Under the pieces are notes generated by a model. It had not been told where the DNA came from. It saw only the letters and a list, made by a program, of their open reading frames with translations, and did not search any database. Shown in pieces: positions 7,377 through 19,030 of a stretch of DNA of 64,000 bases. How positions within the stretch are numbered: the stretch's first letter is position 1; every line of letters begins with the position of its first letter. The DNA is from a virus: positions 91,278 to 155,277 of IMG/VR virus record IMGVR_UViG_3300003323_001324. The stretch is one strand, 5' to 3'. Both the position numbers and the translations under genes were made by a program.

Positions 7377-8420
7377 ATGTCGGACATCGAGGTCAAGATC
7401 TATAACGATGCCGGCGCTGCCACGGGCCTCCCCGGCGTCCTCATCGTCCCCGGCCCCACCGGCCCGCGCGGTCATACGGGCTCTGTCGGGCCTCAGGGCC
7501 CGACCGGCCTTCAGGGCCCGACCGGCGCGGACGGCCTCGTCGGCCTCACCGGGGCCCTCGGCCCTCAGGGGCCCACCGGCCCGCGCGGCGCCACCGGCGT
7601 CGGCGCCCAGGGGCCCCAGGGATCGCCCGGCGTCACCGGGCCTCAGGGTCAGCAGGGCGCCACGGGCCCCTTCGGCGGGCCTCAGGGCTCCCCCGGCGTG
7701 ACCGGCCCCCAGGGCCCGACCGGCCCCTTCGGCGGGCCCACCGGCCCCCAGGGCCTCCAGGGCTCCCCCGGCGTGACCGGCCCCCAGGGCCCGACCGGCC
7801 CCGGCTTCACCGGCCCGACCGGCCCTCGCGGCAGCACGGGAGCCCAGGGCGCCACCGGCGTGGGCGCCACCGGACCCCAGGGCGCCACCGGACAGGTAGG
7901 CCCGACCGGACAGGTCGGCCCCCAGGGCCCCACCGGCCCCTCCGGCGGCCCCGTCGGCCCCACGGGCGCCCCGGGCCCCACCGGCCCGGCCGGCGTCGGC
8001 TACCAGGGCCCGGAACACATCGCCTCCCCCGGCGGCCTCACGCAGACCATCGACTGGTCCCTCGGCCCGAACCAGGCCGTCGCCGTCGGGACGAACGTCA
8101 CGTTCCACTTCCTGCCCCCGGCCGGCGCCGGCCCCCTCGTCCTCCGCCAGTACTTCACGAGGACCGTCTATAGCGGCCCCGTGTGGCCCGCGGGGGCGAC
8201 CGGCGTGCAGCCGATCCAGAACATCGGGGTGTGGGCGGACGGCCTGAAGAACTCGTTCCTCGAGAACGCGGGCGGCGCCCCCATCGGCTACACTGGCGGC
8301 TTCAACATCGACGAGCTCTACTACGACGGGGTCCGGTACTGGATGCGCGACGCCATCGTTCGCTACGTCCCGACCGCCGCCTCCCCGGCCTACGCGACAG
8401 CGACCGGCGGCATCCCCTGA
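7377..8420 (+). CDS. collagen-like fibre protein 1
   Basis: The 347-residue protein has a short N-terminal anchor ([20 protein letters not shown]), a Gly-X-Y collagen-like stretch at about 26-206 rich in GPTGPQG and GSPGVTG triplets, and a C-terminal domain of ~140 residues rich in aromatic residues and glycine. Gly-X-Y stretches in phages trimerise into thin rods, so this is probably a tail or head fibre with a C-terminal trimerisation or receptor-binding head. ATG 7377 is used instead of the in-frame GTG two codons upstream. The collagen part contains a duplicated DNA block. It differs from the other two collagen-like proteins of the window in both end domains. Confidence 0.8.
7686..7802 (+). 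repeat. duplicated 42-bp block inside collagen gene 1
   Basis: An identical 42-base block occurs at 7686-7727 and 7761-7802, a 75-base offset (25 codons), so expansion or contraction by slippage would keep the frame and change the length of the collagen rod. Confidence 0.75.
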
Positions 8421-9535: not shown

Positions 9536-10630
9536 TCAGAACGTCCGGTCGATCTCGAACCCGACGTACCCGACGCCTATGCCGACCGCCGACCCGCGGT
9601 CGACCACGATCTCGTAGACCTTGTCCGAGGACAGGAACGAGACCGGCGCGGACGAGTACTTCGCGAGGCTCGACCCGCTGACGGGGAGGGTAGCCACCCC
9701 GGCCCCGCCGTCCGTGACGCTTCTGACCGACACGAACCCGGTCCCGGAGACGCTGCGGTTCGCCATGGCAACCAGCTTTACCGAGAGCGCGGCCCCGCTC
9801 ATCCGGTAGTTGTCGGGGTTGAACGACTGGGCCCCGGCGACGACCGCCCCGCTGGCCGTGTTCGTCAGGCCACCCGCGAAGATCGGGAGGTCGCTCCTCA
9901 GGAGCTGGCCCGGAGCGAACCCGGCGCCCCTCGGGCCCGTGGCCCCGGGGAGCCCCGCCGGCCCCGTGGTGCCGAAGCCCGCCGGCCCCGTCGCTCCGCG
10001 CGGCCCTGTCGGCCCCGGGGCCCCGCCCCCTGTCGGGCCCTGAGGCCCGATGGCGCCCTGCGGGCCCGTCGGCCCCGGCGGCCCCTGCGGCCCCGGGTTG
10101 CCGAACGGGCCGGTCGGCCCCTGGCCTCCGGCCGGCCCCGTCGTCCCCGGCGATCCCTGGAACCCTCGTGGGCCCGTGGGGCCCTGTGCGCCCGTCGGGC
10201 CCTGGACGCCCGTGGCGCCTGTCGGCCCCGGAGGGCCTCCGTACGGCCCGGTGGCGCCCGCCGGCCCCGTCGGCCCGCGGGCTCCCTGATCCCCCTGGTT
10301 ACCCTTCTTCCCGACGTTCCCCTGAGGCCCGGGAGGGCCCATGAACTGGAGAAGGAGCGGGTCCCTCGTCCCGACCTTGACCAGCCGGATCGCGAAGGAG
10401 TAGGCGTACAGGGCCGTGAACGGCTGGGTGACCTCGGAGAGCGTGATCTGGCTGAGGAACCACGACTTCGGGTCCAGCCCCAGGGTTGAGTATATCTGCG
10501 AGAAGACCTTCGGGTCGTTCACCGCCGTGAGCGGGTTCGCCAGGATGGCGTCCGTGTTGAGCAGGACGTACGCGGCAACGACGTTGCTGGCGTCTGACGG
10601 GAGCTTCTCTACGCCTACGGTGAACGTCAT
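9536..10630 (-). CDS. collagen-like fibre protein 2
   Basis: This 364-residue protein has an N-terminal domain (1-97) with helices and beta strands, a Gly-X-Y region (about 98-236) and a C-terminal beta-rich domain (about 240-364) ending [13 protein letters not shown]. The C-terminal part is compatible with a jelly-roll-like trimeric head. The N-terminal domain is unlike that of collagen-like protein 1, so the two probably attach to different places. It is encoded opposite to the tail genes and is therefore separately expressed. TAGCGT six bases before the ATG fits the start motif of the window. Confidence 0.78.
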
Positions 10631-11502: not shown

Positions 11503-12993
11503 ATGAGTCTGTCCAGGGTCGCTGCTTACCTGAGCTCCCTCGCCCCGGCCGAGTACCGGGTGTCGGACGCCGCCGCGGGGGTGGTGAACTACCTCCTGGA
11601 CTCCTATTTCCAGAAGGTGGACCAGAGGCACGCCGCGGCGGACGCGGGCCGCCGCCCCGTCCCCTACGACCTCGTCGCCTACATCAAGGAGCTCTGGCTC
11701 GGCGCGGAGGTCCACAACTGCCTCAGCCTCTCCCAGGGCTACCCCGCCTACGCCAAGAGCCTCAACGCCTGGGCCTTCTCCCGCCTCTTCTCCGCCTTCG
11801 CCGGCCCCGAGGCCCCGTACGACATCGTCCCCTTCCTCGAGAGCTACGAGTGGAAGGAGGCCGTCAAGGGCGAGTTCAAGATCGAGTCGGAGCAGCTGAA
11901 CGTCAGCCTCACCGAGTCGGCCACGATCCCCGTCTTCGGGACCTTCTTCGTGCGGCACCGCGTCACCGGCGCCCAGCTCGTCGTGAGCTGCGACTTCTGC
12001 TTCTACCGCAACGGCTGCCTCGTCTCCGTGATGTCGAACCCCGCCAACCAGGCGGACGCCGAGCGCTTCTACGCCGACCTTCACGCGTCGATGCGCACGA
12101 ACGACATCTACCTCAACCGGTGCCTCTCCTTCGACAAGGGGAAGCTGGACTTCTTCGGCATCAAGCCGACCTCCTGGGGCGACGTCATCCTCAAGGACGA
12201 CAAGAAGCTCCAGATCCGGGACAACACGGTCGGCGTCCTGTCGAACATGTCGGCCCTCGCGTCCGTCGGCATGATCCCGAACCGGAACGTCATCCTCATT
12301 TCCCCGCCCGGCATGGCGAAGACCACCATGTTCCGGGCCACGTCGGACGAGATCGAGGGCTCCGCCACGCGCATCTGGTGCACCGGCAAGTCCATTCTCT
12401 ACCCCGACCACGTGACGGCCATGTTCGAGGCCGCCCGCTCTCTGGCCCCCTGCATCATCTTCATCGAGGACATGGACCTCTTCGGCGGCGACCGCAACAC
12501 GCTCGGCCGGGACAGCTCCGTGCTCAACGAGTTTCTCGCCCAGCTCGACGGGGCCCAGGCCAACTCCGGCATCGTGGTGATGGCCTCCACCAACGACATC
12601 GCCTCCATGGACGAGGCCCTCGTGAACCGGCCCGGGCGCTTCAGCGTGAAGGTCGAGATCCCCTACCCGGACGACGAGGACCGCCGCCTCATGCTCCGGA
12701 AGTTCATGGGGTCCCTCAACGTCGTCCCGGACCAGTCGGTCACCCCCGACACCATCAAGACCGTCATCGACATGTGCGACGGCTTCACGGGCGACTACGT
12801 CAAGTCCGTGGTCGAGGCCGCTGTCATCCGGGCCGTGGCCGCCCGCAGGTCCGAGGGCGGGAAGGTGACGGTCAACTCCGACGACCTCATCTCGGCCGTC
12901 GAGCAGGCCCTGCAGAACTTCAAGATCGGCAAGAAGGCGAAGAAGCACATCCAGGTGGACGTCGCCCTTCAGGACGAGAAGATGCCGGGCTGA
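11503..12993 (+). CDS. AAA+ ATPase, Cdc48/Bcs1-like
   Basis: The 496-residue protein has an N-terminal alpha/beta domain (1-~225) and one AAA+ module. Visible motifs are Walker A SPPGMAKT (267-274), Walker B IIFIED (318-323), sensor-1 Asn in ASTND (361-365) and the NRPGRF arginine-finger/SRH motif (375-380); a lid helical domain follows. Walker A has Ser and Ala where the usual GPPGxGKT has Gly. The protein should act as a hexameric unfoldase or remodelling factor. Extracellular contractile injection systems carry a related single-module AAA+ protein needed for particle assembly, so a tail-assembly role is attractive but inferred. TAGGCT lies 19 bases upstream of the ATG. The 170-residue helical gene follows 30 bases later. 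Confidence 0.85.
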   Translation: MSLSRVAAYLSSLAPAEYRVSDAAAGVVNYLLDSYFQKVDQRHAAADAGRRPVPYDLVAYIKELWLGAEVHNCLSLSQGYPAYAKSLNAWAFSRLFSAFAGPEAPYDIVPFLESYEWKEAVKGEFKIESEQLNVSLTESATIPVFGTFFVRHRVTGAQLVVSCDFCFYRNGCLVSVMSNPANQADAERFYADLHASMRTNDIYLNRCLSFDKGKLDFFGIKPTSWGDVILKDDKKLQIRDNTVGVLSNMSALASVGMIPNRNVILISPPGMAKTTMFRATSDEIEGSATRIWCTGKSILYPDHVTAMFEAARSLAPCIIFIEDMDLFGGDRNTLGRDSSVLNEFLAQLDGAQANSGIVVMASTNDIASMDEALVNRPGRFSVKVEIPYPDDEDRRLMLRKFMGSLNVVPDQSVTPDTIKTVIDMCDGFTGDYVKSVVEAAVIRAVAARRSEGGKVTVNSDDLISAVEQALQNFKIGKKAKKHIQVDVALQDEKMPG

Positions 12994-13023: not shown

Positions 13024-13536
13024 ATGAACAAGGAAGCAGCCGTAAAGAGTCTGATCGCCGCGTCCCGCCGCCTGGCCCAGATGGACCCGCAGGACGAGGC
13101 CGTCTCGCGCACTGTCGCCGAGATGCAGGAGACCGCGAAGCTGCTCTCCGAGCAGGCCCGGGAGGACAAGTCGTCCCCCTGGGGCTCTCAGTCCATGAAG
13201 GACGACATCGACTCCATCGGCGACCAGATCAAGCGCCTGAAGGCCGCCTCGGCCATCCCGGCCGCCAACTACCGCCGCATCTACGACATCTGCAGCTCGT
13301 TCGAGCGCGCCTGGGCCGTCGCCTCGCGCCCCCAGAACGCCGCCGTCCGCCCGAAGGTCGCCGGCCTGCTGAAGAAGGTCGCCGGCATCTTCGCCGAGGT
13401 CGACACCGTCCAGGACCTGGCCAAGCCGCTCGACGCCATCGAGAAGGCCGTCCACAGCCTGTACGGCGACCAGTCGAAGAACAGCACGTACTACTTCGAC
13501 CGCCGCGGCAAGGGCCACCACTCGCAGGGCGAGTGA
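13024..13536 (+). CDS. helical protein downstream of the AAA+ ATPase
   Basis: The 170-residue product is almost entirely alpha-helical by composition (MNKEAAVKSLIAASRRLAQM..., long Ala/Lys/Glu stretches) with a polar C-terminal tail. It has a Shine-Dalgarno (GAGGAAA) and follows the ATPase by 30 bases on the same strand, so the two are probably co-transcribed. A partner or substrate adaptor of the ATPase is a reasonable guess; no family was recognised. Confidence 0.6.
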   Translation: MNKEAAVKSLIAASRRLAQMDPQDEAVSRTVAEMQETAKLLSEQAREDKSSPWGSQSMKDDIDSIGDQIKRLKAASAIPAANYRRIYDICSSFERAWAVASRPQNAAVRPKVAGLLKKVAGIFAEVDTVQDLAKPLDAIEKAVHSLYGDQSKNSTYYFDRRGKGHHSQGE

Positions 13537-13542
13537 CCCCCG

Positions 13543-13974
13543 TCAGGCCTTGCGCCTGATGAAGTCCCCGAGAGACGCGCTGACGGGCCCCGAGCGAGGG
13601 GCCTCCGGCTCTCGGGGCGACAGCCCCTCCGCCGTCCTGTCGTAGCCCGGGACGCGCTTCTCCCTCTCCCGCTTGACGACGCGGGCCAGGGCCTTCCGCA
13701 CCTCCTCCTCGGTGTGCTCCCGGTTGATGATGAGCACGGGGATGTCGGGATATCTGCGGAAGTGCTTCTTCAGGAACTTCCGGGAGCTCTTGACCTGGAC
13801 CGGCATGTCCCCGACGTCGTGGGTCTCCACGACCACGTCCATGCCCCGGGCGTCCTCCTCCTCGGTCGCCATCCGTATGCGCTTGACCCAGGGGAACACC
13901 CGCGGCCAGCACTGGTCGAAGCAGACCGACGCCAGCATCTCGTGCTCCCGGCTTTGCTTCTTGAGCGGGTCCAT
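13543..13974 (-). CDS. PD-(D/E)XK-like nuclease, QXK variant
   Basis: The 143-residue protein has the arrangement MDVVVETHDVGDMPVQVKSS (about 45-64), then VLIIN after a helix. An acidic residue on one strand and Q-V-K on the next match the PD-(D/E)XK fold in its QXK form, as in Mrr-type enzymes. Upstream helices (CFDQCWPRVFPWVKRI) fit the usual N-terminal helix. The tail is basic and disordered. It could cut or bind DNA; no other domain is attached. TAGCGT five bases before the ATG marks its own start. Fold assignment is by motif only. Confidence 0.5.
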   Translation of the reverse strand: MDPLKKQSREHEMLASVCFDQCWPRVFPWVKRIRMATEEEDARGMDVVVETHDVGDMPVQVKSSRKFLKKHFRRYPDIPVLIINREHTEEEVRKALARVVKREREKRVPGYDRTAEGLSPREPEAPRSGPVSASLGDFIRRKA

Positions 13975-13979
13975 CCCCC

Positions 13980-13985
13980 ACGCTA
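13980..13985 (-). promoter_or_regulatory. TAGCGT hexamer 5 nt before ATG 13974
   Basis: On the minus strand CGTAGCGTGGGGGATG precedes the PD-(D/E)XK-like gene. It matches the window's short-spaced start motif. The GGGGG run abuts the ATG and is not a usable Shine-Dalgarno. Confidence 0.42.
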
Positions 13986-14014
13986 CGCCGGCCGGGGCCG
14001 ACCCTTCGGGCCCC

Positions 14015-14221
14015 TCACGTCTCCGGGAGGGGGAAGTGCGACGCGTACAGGCTCATGAGCTCCGAGTCGGCCGGGACGTCCTGGTCGAGCAGCCTCGTGT
14101 CGTGGCACCTCCGTATGACGGCCGCGACCGCCCCGTAGGTCTCCTGCCTCCTCTCCGGCGTCGCGTAGACGAAGGTCGTGAGGATGAGGAACAGTGCCTT
14201 TCTCTCGTCGTCCCTTTCCAC
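14015..14221 (-). CDS. small helical protein, paralogue of the gene at 16400-16648
   Basis: The 68-residue protein starts at GTG 14221. Its core ERKALFLILTTFVYATPERR...LLD lines up with ERSALHLILVNFVHQGPDER...VLD in the gene at 16400-16648: the two share the same helical frame, F-V and L-D positions. Together the two genes flank the kinase and the small zinc-ribbon gene. The family is not recognised. GAGGG upstream may serve as ribosome-binding site. Confidence 0.6.
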   Translation of the reverse strand: MERDDERKALFLILTTFVYATPERRQETYGAVAAVIRRCHDTRLLDQDVPADSELMSLYASHFPLPET

Positions 14222-14251
14222 CCCGGCCCTCTGTCACCAAAGGCCTCATTC

Positions 14252-16072
14252 TCAGAGCACCTCGTACTGGAAAGAGTAGCAGAAGCCGACCGGGGTCGTC
14301 CCCTCCGTCAGAGGCCGGTACCTCCACTTCGTCATCGCGCTCCGGAACGCCGGGACGAGCGCGGGCGTCCGGGGGCTCGTGACGCTGACCGACGTCGGGG
14401 CCCCGTTGGTCCCCACGCACATCCTGACGCTCGCCTGGAACGGCCCCATGTTCTCTATCGCGCTCGGTATCTGGGGCCGATAGGGCGCGACCGTCGGGCT
14501 TATCGTCAGGCGACGGTGTCCCTCGGAGGAGGACAGGGACCTCGGCCCCGCAGGAGGGGCCTGAGGGTCGAGCATCGTCTCGAAGGGGGTCTTCGACCGC
14601 GGCGCCGTCTTCGGCGGCGGCGCGATGGCGGCCGCCACCGTCGGCGCCGCTGGCGGGGCCGTGTGAGCCTCTTCTACGGGAGCCGGCACCTCCTTCTGCG
14701 CCGGCTCGACCGCCGGGGCCACGCTGGGCTCGGCCTTCTGGACCCTCTCCGCCGTCCGCCTCGCGGCCGGCGCCTGCGGCGCGGGCCTCTCCTCCGCGGC
14801 GGGTTGCGGGGCAGGGGGCGGCTGGACTATCACGGTCCGGACCTCTCCCGGGAGGTACACCGTCTTCTCGACGACCTCCTTCTCCTTGTACAGGTAGGCC
14901 ACGGGGACGAGCAGGGCCATCGGCACGAATATGATCCCCATGACCCAGAACAGGGCCTTCCGGATCTCCCCCATCGTGTCGACCGGGGCCTCCGGCGGCC
15001 TTGACCTGGTCTGGACCCTGGAGACGTCCGGGGAGCTCCGCTCCGCAATCTCCTCGGCCGCCTTGATCTGCGCCGTCGTCTCGCTTATCCGGTCCGACAG
15101 GAGCCTCTCCAGGTACTCCTGGATCTCCCGCTCGATGCCCGGCTCGAACGCCTCCGGGACCGCGGCCTCGAGCGCCCGGAGGACCTCCTCGGCCCCCGAG
15201 TACCTCTTGTCCCTGTTCTTCTCCAGGGACTTCATGACCACCTTCTCCAGCTCCTCCGGGTAGAAGTCCGTCATGTCCGACGGGAGCATCGGCGGCTTGT
15301 CGGAGATGATGCGCGCCAGGATCCCGTCGGGGGTCCCCGCGACGTCGCGGAACGGGTGGGACCCCGTGGTCGCCATGTAGAGCATGACGCCGACGGCGAA
15401 GACGTCCACCCTCCGGTCCACGGTCTGCTGCATCAGCACCTCCGGGGCCAGATAGGACAGCTTCCCCTTCAGCTCCCCCGCCTGCGTCATAGCCGCGCTG
15501 GTGGAGGCCTTCGCTATGCCGAAGTCCAGGAGCTTGGCGACGCCCCCGTACGTCACTATGACGTTCCCCGGGGTCACGTCCCGGTGCACCAGCCCCAGCG
15601 GCCGGCCGCCCTCGTCCACGAGGTCGTGGGCCGCCTGCAGGCCGCGGCACACCTGCCCTATGATGTTCACCGCCACCTTGAGCGGGAGGCCGCCGGCCGC
15701 CTTCGCGGCCTTGAAGAGGCCGAGGAGGGTCTCCCCGCGCACGAGCTCCATGGCGAGGTAGCACACTCCCCGGTGCTCTCCGAAGTCCTCTACGGCCACC
15801 ACGTTCGGATGGTGGATCATCGACGCGAGCCTGGCCTCCTGGAAGAGCATGTCCTCCATCCGCGCCTCCTCGTGCTCTGACGCCAGGATCGTCTTCACGG
15901 CGAGGAGCCTCTTGAAGCCCCTTCCGCCCTTGGCGCGGGCGACCCACACCCTCCCCATGCCTCCCTTCGCCACGGGCGTCAGGAGCTCATAACGGCCGTC
16001 GAGCACGGTCCCCGTCGCCAGGTCCGACTCCGACATCTTTTCCCGGACGTTCTCGGTCTTGGTTGTCTCCAT
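14252..16072 (-). CDS. membrane Ser/Thr protein kinase with TonB-like C-terminal domain
   Basis: The 606-residue product is a Hanks-type kinase (about 28-305): glycine loop KGGMGRV (36-42), Lys60 in AVK, Glu79, catalytic HRDVTPGN (163-170, Asp165, Asn170), DFG (183-185) and APE (209-211), all intact. A transmembrane helix follows at about 373-394, then a Pro/Ala-rich spacer (415-530) and a ~60-residue C-terminus (MCVGTNGAPTSVSV...MTKWRYRPL) resembling TonB_C/AgmX-type domains. The kinase would be cytoplasmic and the TonB-like part periplasmic. This architecture is characteristic of Myxococcota kinases and suggests capture from such a host. ATG 16072 is chosen: GGAG precedes it and the kinase begins soon after; a longer in-frame start at 16180 adds a basic, unlikely extension. 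Confidence 0.9.
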   Translation of the reverse strand: METTKTENVREKMSESDLATGTVLDGRYELLTPVAKGGMGRVWVARAKGGRGFKRLLAVKTILASEHEEARMEDMLFQEARLASMIHHPNVVAVEDFGEHRGVCYLAMELVRGETLLGLFKAAKAAGGLPLKVAVNIIGQVCRGLQAAHDLVDEGGRPLGLVHRDVTPGNVIVTYGGVAKLLDFGIAKASTSAAMTQAGELKGKLSYLAPEVLMQQTVDRRVDVFAVGVMLYMATTGSHPFRDVAGTPDGILARIISDKPPMLPSDMTDFYPEELEKVVMKSLEKNRDKRYSGAEEVLRALEAAVPEAFEPGIEREIQEYLERLLSDRISETTAQIKAAEEIAERSSPDVSRVQTRSRPPEAPVDTMGEIRKALFWVMGIIFVPMALLVPVAYLYKEKEVVEKTVYLPGEVRTVIVQPPPAPQPAAEERPAPQAPAARRTAERVQKAEPSVAPAVEPAQKEVPAPVEEAHTAPPAAPTVAAAIAPPPKTAPRSKTPFETMLDPQAPPAGPRSLSSSEGHRRLTISPTVAPYRPQIPSAIENMGPFQASVRMCVGTNGAPTSVSVTSPRTPALVPAFRSAMTKWRYRPLTEGTTPVGFCYSFQYEVL

Positions 16073-16092
16073 TCTCCGACCCTCTCGACTTT

Positions 16093-16110
16093 GGCGGTCT
16101 CCTAACCGCC
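16093..16110. promoter_or_regulatory. hairpin in the kinase leader
   Basis: GGCGGT (16093-16098) and ACCGCC (16105-16110) pair around CTCCTA. It lies ~20 bases before the kinase start. Read on the + strand it is followed by TTTT and looks like an intrinsic terminator; on the minus strand it sits in the 5' leader with TAGGAG in the loop. It may insulate the kinase or control its translation. Confidence 0.45.
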
Positions 16111-16164
16111 TTTTCGTCGTCCCGTGCCCTATCCGGCCCCTTCGCGGACTTCCGGCCCGCGCCC

Positions 16165-16398
16165 CTACCGGTCTTCCCACACCATGCTGTAGGGCGTCCT
16201 CTCGTTACCGCACTCGCACCTCGGCGCCTCGAGCCCCCTGGCCTCGCCGACGGCGAAGGGGACGGAGGCCGTGAGCACGCGCCCGCACTCCCCGCACGGG
16301 GCCGAGAACGGCTCCATCCCGAACCTTCTCCTCCACGCCTCGGGGTCGGCCCCGTGCAGCAGTCTCAGCCACCTCGTCCGGGTGAGGACGAGGCGCAC
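16165..16398 (-). CDS. small zinc-ribbon protein
   Basis: The 77-residue protein has two pairs, CGECG at about 35-39 and CECGNE at about 61-66, spaced as in a zinc ribbon, behind a basic N-terminal helix (MRLVLTRTRWLRLLHG). The GTG start at 16398 follows the previous stop by one base (TGAGGTG), so it is coupled to the gene at 16400-16648. Function unknown; nucleic-acid or protein docking is typical for such ribbons. Confidence 0.6.
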   Translation of the reverse strand: MRLVLTRTRWLRLLHGADPEAWRRRFGMEPFSAPCGECGRVLTASVPFAVGEARGLEAPRCECGNERTPYSMVWEDR

Positions 16399-16399
16399 C

Positions 16400-16648
16400 T
16401 CAGCCCTTCTTTCTGCGCTCGTCGAGGTAGAAGTCCATGAGCTCGCTCCTCGGACCGCCCGCGAACATGACCGGGTCCTGGAGGAGGTCGAGCTCCGGCG
16501 TCCTCCCGACGTCCAGGACGCCCATGTCCGTGGCCTTCTTCACCGTGGCCCTCACCGCGGCCTCGCTCCTCGCCCTCTCGTCCGGTCCCTGGTGGACGAA
16601 GTTCACGAGTATGAGATGGAGGGCGCTTCGCTCGACCGAGGCGTTCAT
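16400..16648 (-). CDS. small helical protein, paralogue of the gene at 14015-14221
   Basis: The 82-residue protein starts at ATG 16648, with TAGGGT five bases upstream. Residues 5-45 match the 68-residue protein downstream of the kinase; the C-terminal ~37 residues (GRTPELDLLQDPVMF...) replace its shorter tail. It is the first gene of the minus-strand unit leading into the zinc ribbon and the kinase. No family recognised. Confidence 0.6.
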   Translation of the reverse strand: MNASVERSALHLILVNFVHQGPDERARSEAAVRATVKKATDMGVLDVGRTPELDLLQDPVMFAGGPRSELMDFYLDERRKKG

Positions 16649-16653
16649 GCAAC

Positions 16654-16659
16654 ACCCTA
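16654..16659 (-). promoter_or_regulatory. TAGGGT hexamer 5 nt before ATG 16648
   Basis: On the minus strand CGTAGGGTGTTGCATG precedes the start. No Shine-Dalgarno is present. This is the probable promoter of the unit leading to the kinase. Confidence 0.45.
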
Positions 16660-16685
16660 CGCCTTCGATTGCCCATCCCGTGGTC

Positions 16686-17219
16686 ATGGACCAGGTCCCG
16701 AAGCTTGTCCGCGGCCCCGCCTTCCACCTGGACGGCGACGGGCGGTGGGACGTCCAGGAGCTTCCCTGGGAGGTGCGCCAGAAGGCCGAGTACTCCGGCG
16801 AGATCGAGATCGAGGGCTTCCCCGCCGTCGTCTTCGAGATGCCGGACGGCGACCAGTGGGCCCAGAAGGCCCCCGGGTCTCCCTCCCCGAAGGGGGAGGA
16901 GGCCGTGGAGGACGCTCTCGCCCAGGTTTCGGCCTCCTTTTCGGACCCGTTTCTCGAGATGGGAAAGCGCGTCGTCGCCAAGGTCGAGCTGGAGCAGAAC
17001 CAGCTGGCCTCCGCCCGCGCGCTCCTCCAGGAGCTCAAGGTCTGCAGGGACTCCATCGACAAGGCCCTTCGCCACAGCCGCGCCCTCTCGACCGACTCCT
17101 CCCTCTCCTGGATCCACGACTCGCTGGAGGCCAAGAAGGAGGAGGTCGACGGCATGGCGCAGGGCATCCGAGAGTCGCTCGAGTACCTGACCCGCATGGA
17201 CTTCCCCGACAGCCCGTAG
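16686..17219 (+). CDS. hypothetical protein with C-terminal coiled coil
   Basis: A 177-residue product from ATG 16686; an in-frame ATG at 16647 would add 13 residues and overlap the divergent start. The N-terminal ~60 residues are beta-rich and acidic (FHLDGDGRWDVQELPW). From about residue 85 to the end it is a long charged helix likely to form a coiled coil (VVAKVELEQNQLASARALLQ). No family recognised. It starts the + strand set that continues to RtcB. Confidence 0.6.
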   Translation: MDQVPKLVRGPAFHLDGDGRWDVQELPWEVRQKAEYSGEIEIEGFPAVVFEMPDGDQWAQKAPGSPSPKGEEAVEDALAQVSASFSDPFLEMGKRVVAKVELEQNQLASARALLQELKVCRDSIDKALRHSRALSTDSSLSWIHDSLEAKKEEVDGMAQGIRESLEYLTRMDFPDSP

Positions 17220-17620: not shown

Positions 17621-19030
17621 ATGTCCATGAAGTACGCGGCCGAGAGGGTGGAGGACGGCCACTACGTCCTCCCGAGGATGACCGGGACGGCCATGAGGGT
17701 GGAGGCCCACGCCTTCCTCTCCGACGCCCTGTACGAGGCCTCGGAGGAGGGCATGTGGCAGCAGCTCGCGGCCGCAGCCTCCTACGAGGGCGTGACCGGA
17801 GCGTACGCGATGCCGGACTGTCACCTCGGCTACGGCGTCCCCGTCGGTTGCGTCGTCGTGACCGACGACGTCATCATTCAGGCGGCCTCCGGGTACGACA
17901 TCTCCTGCGGCGTCCTCTACATGCGGACGAGCCTGACCGCCGCGGACGTCGCCGACCCCGAGCGCCGTCGGTCCTGGATCCAGGCCGTCGAGAAGCGGAT
18001 CGCGACCGGCGTCGGGTCCTCTCGCCCCGACCTCATGCCGAAGTTCAACGTCAGGGCCCAGGAGGACATCCTCCGCTACGGGGCCCGGGCTATGGGCGTG
18101 TCGGCGGACCTTTGCGAGCGCCAGTACATCCCCGTCCCCGAGGACCTGGACCTCGACGCCATCGAGAAGGCCCGGTCCAAGGTCGGCGACCAGCTCGGGT
18201 CCGTCGGCGGCGGCAACCACTTCGTCGAGATGCAGGTTGATCGCGACTCCGGCGAGGTGTTCGTGATGGTCCACTGCGGCTCGCGCGGCTACGGCTGGCA
18301 GACCGCGAACCACTTCTTCTATAAGGGCGCCGAGCTGCGAGAGCTCCCCATGAACCGTCGCGAGGACTCTTGGGTCCGGGCGGACGAGCCCCTCGGCAAG
18401 GAGTACTGGGCCTACCACAACTCGGCCGCGAACTTCGCCGTGGCCAATCGCCACGTCATCGCGAAGGGAGTCGCCAGTTCCCTCCAGGAGGTCTACGGGG
18501 CCGAGTCCTCCGTCTACTACGAGATCTCCCACAACCTCGTCCAGAGGGAGACCCTCGTCCTCCCCGACGGGACGACGAAGAGGGGCTTCGTCCACCGCAA
18601 GGGCGCGACGCGCGCCTTCCCCGCCGGCCACCCCGACCTCGTGGGGACGGCATGGGAGGAGACCGGCCACCCCTGCCTCATCCCTGGCTCCATGTTCCAC
18701 GGCGCCGCCGTCCTCTTCGCCGAGCCAGGATCTCACAAGTCCGCCTGCTCCGTGAACCACGGATCGGGCCGCGTCCTCGGCCGCGGCGCCGCCAAGCGCG
18801 CCCTGGAGTCGAGGCAGGGCGAGATAAACGACGAGATGCGGGACGTCGTCCGGACCTTCGGCGGCGTCCCGGTCAAGGGCATCCTCACCAACACCCGCGA
18901 CGTTGTGCTCGACGAGTGCGGGCACGTCTACAAGGACCTGGACGCCGTCCTCGACACGCTCTCTCAGGCCGGCATCGCCCGCGTGTCCCGTCGTCTCTAC
19001 CCCGTCGCCAACATCAAGGGCGCCGACTAG
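17621..19030 (+). CDS. rtcB: RNA-splicing ligase RtcB
   Basis: RtcB joins RNA 2',3'-cyclic phosphate or 3'-phosphate ends to 5'-OH ends using GTP and manganese. The 469-residue length is normal for the family. Visible motifs are MPDCHLGYG (64-72), the metal site GYDISCG with Asp93 and Cys96, GGGNHFVE (196-203), HCGSRG (218-223), and NHGSGR (379-384), whose His380 corresponds to the guanylylated histidine. All key residues appear intact. In phages RtcB is thought to repair tRNAs or rRNA cut by host anticodon nucleases and other defences. It is followed directly by a small SH3-like gene whose ATG comes right after the stop. Confidence 0.95.
   Translation: MSMKYAAERVEDGHYVLPRMTGTAMRVEAHAFLSDALYEASEEGMWQQLAAAASYEGVTGAYAMPDCHLGYGVPVGCVVVTDDVIIQAASGYDISCGVLYMRTSLTAADVADPERRRSWIQAVEKRIATGVGSSRPDLMPKFNVRAQEDILRYGARAMGVSADLCERQYIPVPEDLDLDAIEKARSKVGDQLGSVGGGNHFVEMQVDRDSGEVFVMVHCGSRGYGWQTANHFFYKGAELRELPMNRREDSWVRADEPLGKEYWAYHNSAANFAVANRHVIAKGVASSLQEVYGAESSVYYEISHNLVQRETLVLPDGTTKRGFVHRKGATRAFPAGHPDLVGTAWEETGHPCLIPGSMFHGAAVLFAEPGSHKSACSVNHGSGRVLGRGAAKRALESRQGEINDEMRDVVRTFGGVPVKGILTNTRDVVLDECGHVYKDLDAVLDTLSQAGIARVSRRLYPVANIKGAD

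Follow-up and report, generated by a model that had tools for sequence, protein, structure and literature searches.

A membrane-spanning kinase with a TonB-type end is encoded as cargo in a variable gene slot of a phage genome, and its nearest relatives are kinases of Polyangiaceae-type Myxococcota. The gene lies at positions 14252–16072 (minus strand) of the window, the 64,000-nucleotide stretch analysed here, which corresponds to bases 91,278–155,277 of a linear, 157,577-bp IMG/VR virus record (IMGVR_UViG_3300003323_001324). The protein is probably either a receptor-like kinase or a TonB decoy, a functional assignment made from its sequence. The reading favoured here, held with a little better than even confidence, is that of a host-signalling receptor: a membrane kinase carrying an unpowered TonB-type reader, through which the phage would retune its host.

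The gene is complete and encodes 606 amino acids. Translation runs from position 16072 to 14252, and GGAGA lies just 5' of the ATG. In-frame GTG codons are present further upstream; the ATG was chosen because it is the top-scoring start and agrees with the N-termini of full-length homologues. The coordinates proposed in the preliminary description are exact, and so is the domain order it gave. Four regions follow one another: a Hanks-type kinase domain (aa 30–298; 15179–15985), a single transmembrane helix (aa 373–391; 14900–14956; mean hydropathy 2.4), a Pro/Ala-rich spacer presumed to be periplasmic (aa 394–508; 14549–14893; 22 Pro and 22 Ala between aa 396 and 500) and a TonB-type C-terminal domain (aa 509–606 plus stop; 14252–14548), all on the minus strand. 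This order is borne out by hydropathy, composition, homologues and predicted fold. The kinase domain matches Pfam Pkinase with E 1.3e-34 (120 bits against a cut-off of 31.7), and its nearest solved relative by sequence is PknA (E 2e-40). All the Hanks catalytic motifs described earlier as intact are indeed there. The GGMG loop (G37–G40), K60 and E79 of helix alpha-C are present, as are HRD (H163–D165), N170, DFG (D183) and APE (E211), and these catalytic residues are invariant in a four-member family alignment. By domain score and residues the protein is classed as a Hanks-type Ser/Thr kinase with predicted activity.

Assignment of the C-terminal domain depends on comparison with a bacterial relative. 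In the phage sequence alone, the TonB_C profile (PF03544) scores E 0.002 (18.9 bits), which is below its cut-off of 24.6, and direct sequence comparison of the last 98 or so residues with solved TonB structures is weak (E 0.2–0.3). The phage end domain is 39% identical over 98 residues to the C-terminus of a full-length bacterial homologue (E 2e-21). In the one homologue checked, this region exceeds the TonB_C cut-off, with 33–37 bits. An AlphaFold model of the 98-residue end on its own (pLDDT 70) retrieved TonB-family C-terminal domains as all 15 of its best PDB matches (best E 0.004, probability 1.00). The phage end is read as TonB-type because the bacterial homologue passes the cut-off and because the model finds these structures. 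The TonB-like similarity claimed earlier is thus sub-threshold by profile in the phage protein and secured through homologue and fold. Two cysteines, C552 and C598, are conserved in the kinases and in most of the standalone proteins that have this domain, a pattern compatible with a periplasmic disulphide. The phage end domain has diverged further from its bacterial homologues than the kinase domain has, and it may have switched partner.

Related bacterial genomes also encode this end domain in standalone proteins. One of them (L149) looks like a true TonB-type transducer because it directly adjoins genes for ExbB and ExbD. Most of the standalone proteins retain in the helix a Ser-xxx-His motif, which TonB and TolA use for docking to their motor (PMC12204202). 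The alignment revealed no such motif in the transmembrane helix of either the phage or the bacterial kinases; the phage helix contains neither His nor Ser. ExbB and ExbD were likewise not found among the island ORFs and flanking genes tested with Pfam. A role for the phage protein as a TonB energy transducer was rejected on these two grounds. Since the kinase lacks Ser-xxx-His, its TonB-type end is probably not driven by ExbB/ExbD force. A tree of end domains, built to time the fusion of kinase and TonB_C, gave no resolution.

An end domain of TonB-type fold that lacks the motor-binding motif would act as a passive competitor. It has therefore to be considered whether the protein is a decoy, occupying TonB boxes of outer-membrane transporters and so blocking receptors on which other phages, or the same phage, depend for entry, a form of superinfection exclusion with kinase activity secondary. 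Phage kinases can serve exclusion: Stk of phage 933W takes part in the exclusion of HK97 (PMC3681748), although Stk is a kinase and no decoy. A decoy would have no need of a kinase domain in which every catalytic residue is kept, and the bacterial homologues resemble the phage protein more closely in the kinase than in the end domain. This explanation is considered unlikely.

The ancestry of the gene was traced in bacterial genomes. A search of 84,980 species genomes of bacteria and archaea with an 86-residue catalytic piece gave a top 45 made up almost entirely of Myxococcota. To gauge how widely the family occurs, a non-exhaustive sample of 134 genomes was searched with an end-domain profile. 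Full-length homologues were recovered from three of them, Myxococcales PMG_095, Polyangiaceae C_No_T20_C_bin.74 and Polyangiaceae TY_HY_2_bin.50. Identity is 43–46% in whole-genome searches (E 1e-118 to 1e-124) and 42–44% by multiple alignment. The alignments span aa 18–604, at most aa 14–605, and so include the end domain. In a fourth genome, Sorangium sp. bin s1, the kinase part (L127) and the end domain (L108) lie at two contig ends and are likely to be one split gene. A maximum-likelihood kinase tree of 105 rows places the phage protein as sister to exactly these four TonB-ended kinases (support 98/89), and the five together sit within a clade of Polyangiaceae-type kinases. The proposal that the phage kinase would nest in Myxococcota is upheld, and the full-length homologues come from that source and not from unrelated phyla. 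The preliminary description had further regarded the architecture as one known from Myxococcota-type bacteria. That statement holds in part: the nearest kinases are by far those of Myxococcota, but the close version of the end domain was found on kinases in only three to four of the 134 genomes searched and is not general to the phylum. More distant kinase–TonB_C fusions (for example L122) suggest that the combination arose more than once. The origin of the gene points to, without proving, a Polyangiaceae-type myxococcal host.

The record itself most likely represents part of a jumbo-phage genome, judging by its phage structural genes and the relatives of its head protein. Flanking stretches encode the terminase large subunit, portal, head-maturation protease and major head protein. 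Relatives of the last were found on 74 further stretches of viral contigs, mostly 84–98% identical and on contigs of up to 436 kb, and it is related to the major head proteins of Tunturi_5 and Bacillus phage G. Several other genes were observed in passing. A homologue of Volactin (PF25216, E 1e-69), an actin-like protein whose name appears in work on cell-shape determinants in Haloferax volcanii (PMC10869688), lies just upstream of the window (L006:13990–14997, plus strand; record 89,990–90,997). NAD-salvage-type genes comprise a nicotinamide phosphoribosyltransferase (L004:7818–9230) and two nucleotidyltransferase-type genes (L004:5963–6505 and L004:9232–10365). A pyrimidine-type cluster (L003:15170–19892) encodes a phosphoribosyltransferase, a dihydroorotate dehydrogenase and an amidohydrolase that is dihydroorotase-like by a match just below cut-off. 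Within the window, a collagen-like repeat protein (9536–10630, minus strand; E 2.4e-15) is encoded close to a tail-fibre gene (7377–8420).

The slot that carries the kinase as cargo varies in content. Synteny with nine related contigs delimits this slot to positions 13537–16685 (no strand assigned), from a conserved 170-residue gene on its immediate left (13024–13536, plus strand) to the 'g260' gene on its right (16686–17219, plus strand). A longer ORF that would extend the right-hand gene back to 16437 is probably spurious, because homology begins near the ATG at 16686. Further landmarks are a conserved AAA ATPase on the left (11503–12993, plus strand; Pfam AAA, E 1.1e-20; 47–78% identical in nine viral contigs) and an RtcB-type RNA ligase on the right (17621–19030, plus strand; PHROG 1075, E 1.7e-68; 82% identical in L237/L246). 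The AAA gene, 170-residue gene, slot and 'g260' gene are collinear in the relatives; in the nearest, L237, RtcB is collinear too. Here the slot holds five minus-strand ORFs including the kinase, in L237 it holds an HNH-like ORF, and in L244 it measures 36 bp. The HNH-like ORF (L237:11055–11804) has Cys/His motifs by eye and no Pfam match.

Three of the other four ORFs of the slot are small. Two of these are paralogues, one of 68 residues downstream of the kinase (14015–14221) and one of 86 codons as read (16400–16660), with 41% identity over 41 residues (E 2e-6); their alignment scores 80, whereas 2000 shuffles gave no score above 42. They bracket the kinase together with a 77-residue Cys-rich ORF (16165–16398), and no counterpart of either turned up in the loci retrieved from related phages. 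The 77-residue ORF contains CxxC and CxC, is zinc-ribbon-like by eye and has no Pfam match. The remaining ORF (143 residues; 13543–13974) is a possible PD-(D/E)xK nuclease. Its match to the MjaI restriction endonuclease is weak (E 0.0026; 18.1 bits, below the cut-off of 22.7), and its structure model is too poor for a nuclease to be called. All four are on the minus strand.

Two less eventful histories have to be set against this arrangement. Bacterial DNA might have been joined to the phage contig at assembly, since the record derives from a single assembly and stretch L006 contains 47 N, though outside the kinase region. The genes on both flanks of the slot are nevertheless collinear with related phages, and no recognised bacterial neighbour gene lies alongside the kinase. 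AGG accounts for 40% of arginine codons in the kinase gene, close to the mean of 36% in phage minus-strand genes, compared with 4% in a bacterial homologue, and identity to bacterial proteins is only about 43%. Synteny and codon usage led to the rejection of contamination or a false join, which is regarded as highly improbable. The phage-like use of AGG instead suggests that the gene has probably been long resident in the phage. Alternatively, a host gene might have been swept into an insertion slot of the homing-nuclease type and kept temporarily, without a role in infection. The variability of the slot, its nuclease-like ORFs (HNH-like by eye in L237, weakly MjaI-like here) and the absence of the kinase from related phage records would agree with such a passenger. 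A frame of 606 intact codons with all catalytic residues, at about 43% identity to bacterial proteins and with phage-like codon usage, argues that the gene has probably been kept for long, and a mere passenger is thought improbable.

Carriage in a variable slot would also suit a weapon. The kinase could sense infection by a competitor and shut down either the cell or the competitor, as a defence-type system resembling the PD-T4-6 kinases. A PADLOC PD-T4-6 model indeed matches aa 19–504 with E 4e-71. This match lacks specificity, because some 20 PD-T4-6 models match the protein and Hanks kinases are matched broadly. The one close homologue read in its genomic context, that of PMG_095, has dnaJ, proC and a cupin gene in its vicinity and no recognisable prophage around it; these are ordinary chromosomal genes and not a defence island. 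An inter-phage weapon is accordingly given little credence, if slightly more than a passenger.

That such a kinase is not a usual phage protein, as first supposed, is in keeping with the viral searches. IMG/VR was scanned with the whole kinase, the catalytic piece, the end domain and the family alignment, and no other viral copy was found. None of 28 related phage records, many of which are fragments, contains a comparable kinase. In the GenBank phage set, matches are confined to the kinase domain at 28–38% identity, and many of them, unannotated or unverified entries with Listeria or Enterococcus labels, are probably host-type PASTA kinases. Two other huge phages carry kinases of different construction. 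In the related 485-kb phage LR745208.1, one of the 28 records, a DnaJ-like N-terminus is joined to a different kinase domain beside a vWA-like gene (L234:1264–2298). The 595-kb phage LR756511.1 encodes a membrane-type Ser/Thr kinase with another C-terminal domain (L008:2974–4545), which suggests that kinases of this sort entered huge phages more than once.

The favoured receptor model can be set out as a series of proposed steps. (i) The phage protein would span the inner membrane of the host, its kinase facing the cytoplasm and its spacer and TonB-type domain exposed to the periplasm. (ii) The TonB-type domain would pair with a partner normally bound by the host's own kinase or by TonB. The likeliest candidate is the TonB box of an outer-membrane transporter, engaged by beta-strand addition. 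In Myxococcus xanthus, the transporter Oar is bound by TonB end domains at its plug-containing part (PMC6434023). (iii) Since the helix has no Ser-xxx-His, through which TonB is coupled to ExbB/ExbD, the end domain is proposed to be unpowered and to read a ligand, as PASTA domains do in PknB. (iv) Binding of the partner would alter dimerization of the kinase and phosphorylation of its activation loop. (v) The kinase would then phosphorylate host proteins, so that envelope, transport or developmental signalling is retuned during infection. The rewiring of host signalling raised in the preliminary description is, we infer, what such a protein could bring about. A bolder version can be put forward only tentatively. 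The protein may represent an undescribed class of receptor: a kinase that uses an unpowered TonB-type domain to read outer-membrane transporters, or some other partner in the envelope. With it the phage could read or seize, across the periplasm, the state of outer-membrane transport in its host, thereby controlling host signalling and possibly keeping competitors from entering.

Few phage kinases have a known role, and one, Stk, is already tied to phage exclusion. The present kinase spans the membrane and carries a TonB end domain, and TonB contacts outer-membrane receptors, some of which are used for phage entry. If the kinase is active, it would give the phage a means of acting on envelope and receptors from within the cell, and the phage may be able to touch and retune host envelope signalling. 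The gene also points to a family of bacterial kinases with TonB-type sensor ends, for which no description was found in the literature searched (mostly that outside subscription journals). For a widespread group of jumbo phages it provides a host lead, to Polyangiaceae-type Myxococcota.

Known systems each share part of this design. The PknB/PrkC plan consists of a cytoplasmic kinase, one transmembrane helix and an external domain. The phage protein has its kinase fold in common with Hanks kinases of the PknA, PknB and PrkC type, but carries a TonB-type end in place of PASTA repeats. Pfam found no PASTA in it and NCBIfam PknB_PASTA gave 233 bits against a cut-off of 450, so that classification as a PASTA kinase was rejected. 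With ExbB/ExbD-coupled TonB it shares the fold of the C-terminal domain and the Pro-rich spacer; it differs in having a kinase as its N-terminus, a helix without Ser-xxx-His and no ExbB or ExbD seen beside the gene. The phage serine–threonine kinases of PHROG 2361 match aa 17–305 (E 2e-43) and leave the end domain uncovered. Stk of phage 933W is likewise a eukaryote-like, phage-carried kinase that acts during infection (PMC3681748), a likeness taken from its description, and unlike the kinase in the window it is a prophage-borne tyrosine kinase. The closest counterparts are the Polyangiaceae-type kinase–TonB_C proteins (L101:9506–11359, L125, L126 and the split L127 plus L108). These have the same architecture, a common juxtamembrane segment, the two end-domain cysteines and no motor motif; the phage version is set apart by its carriage on a phage, its more diverged end domain and a different activation loop.
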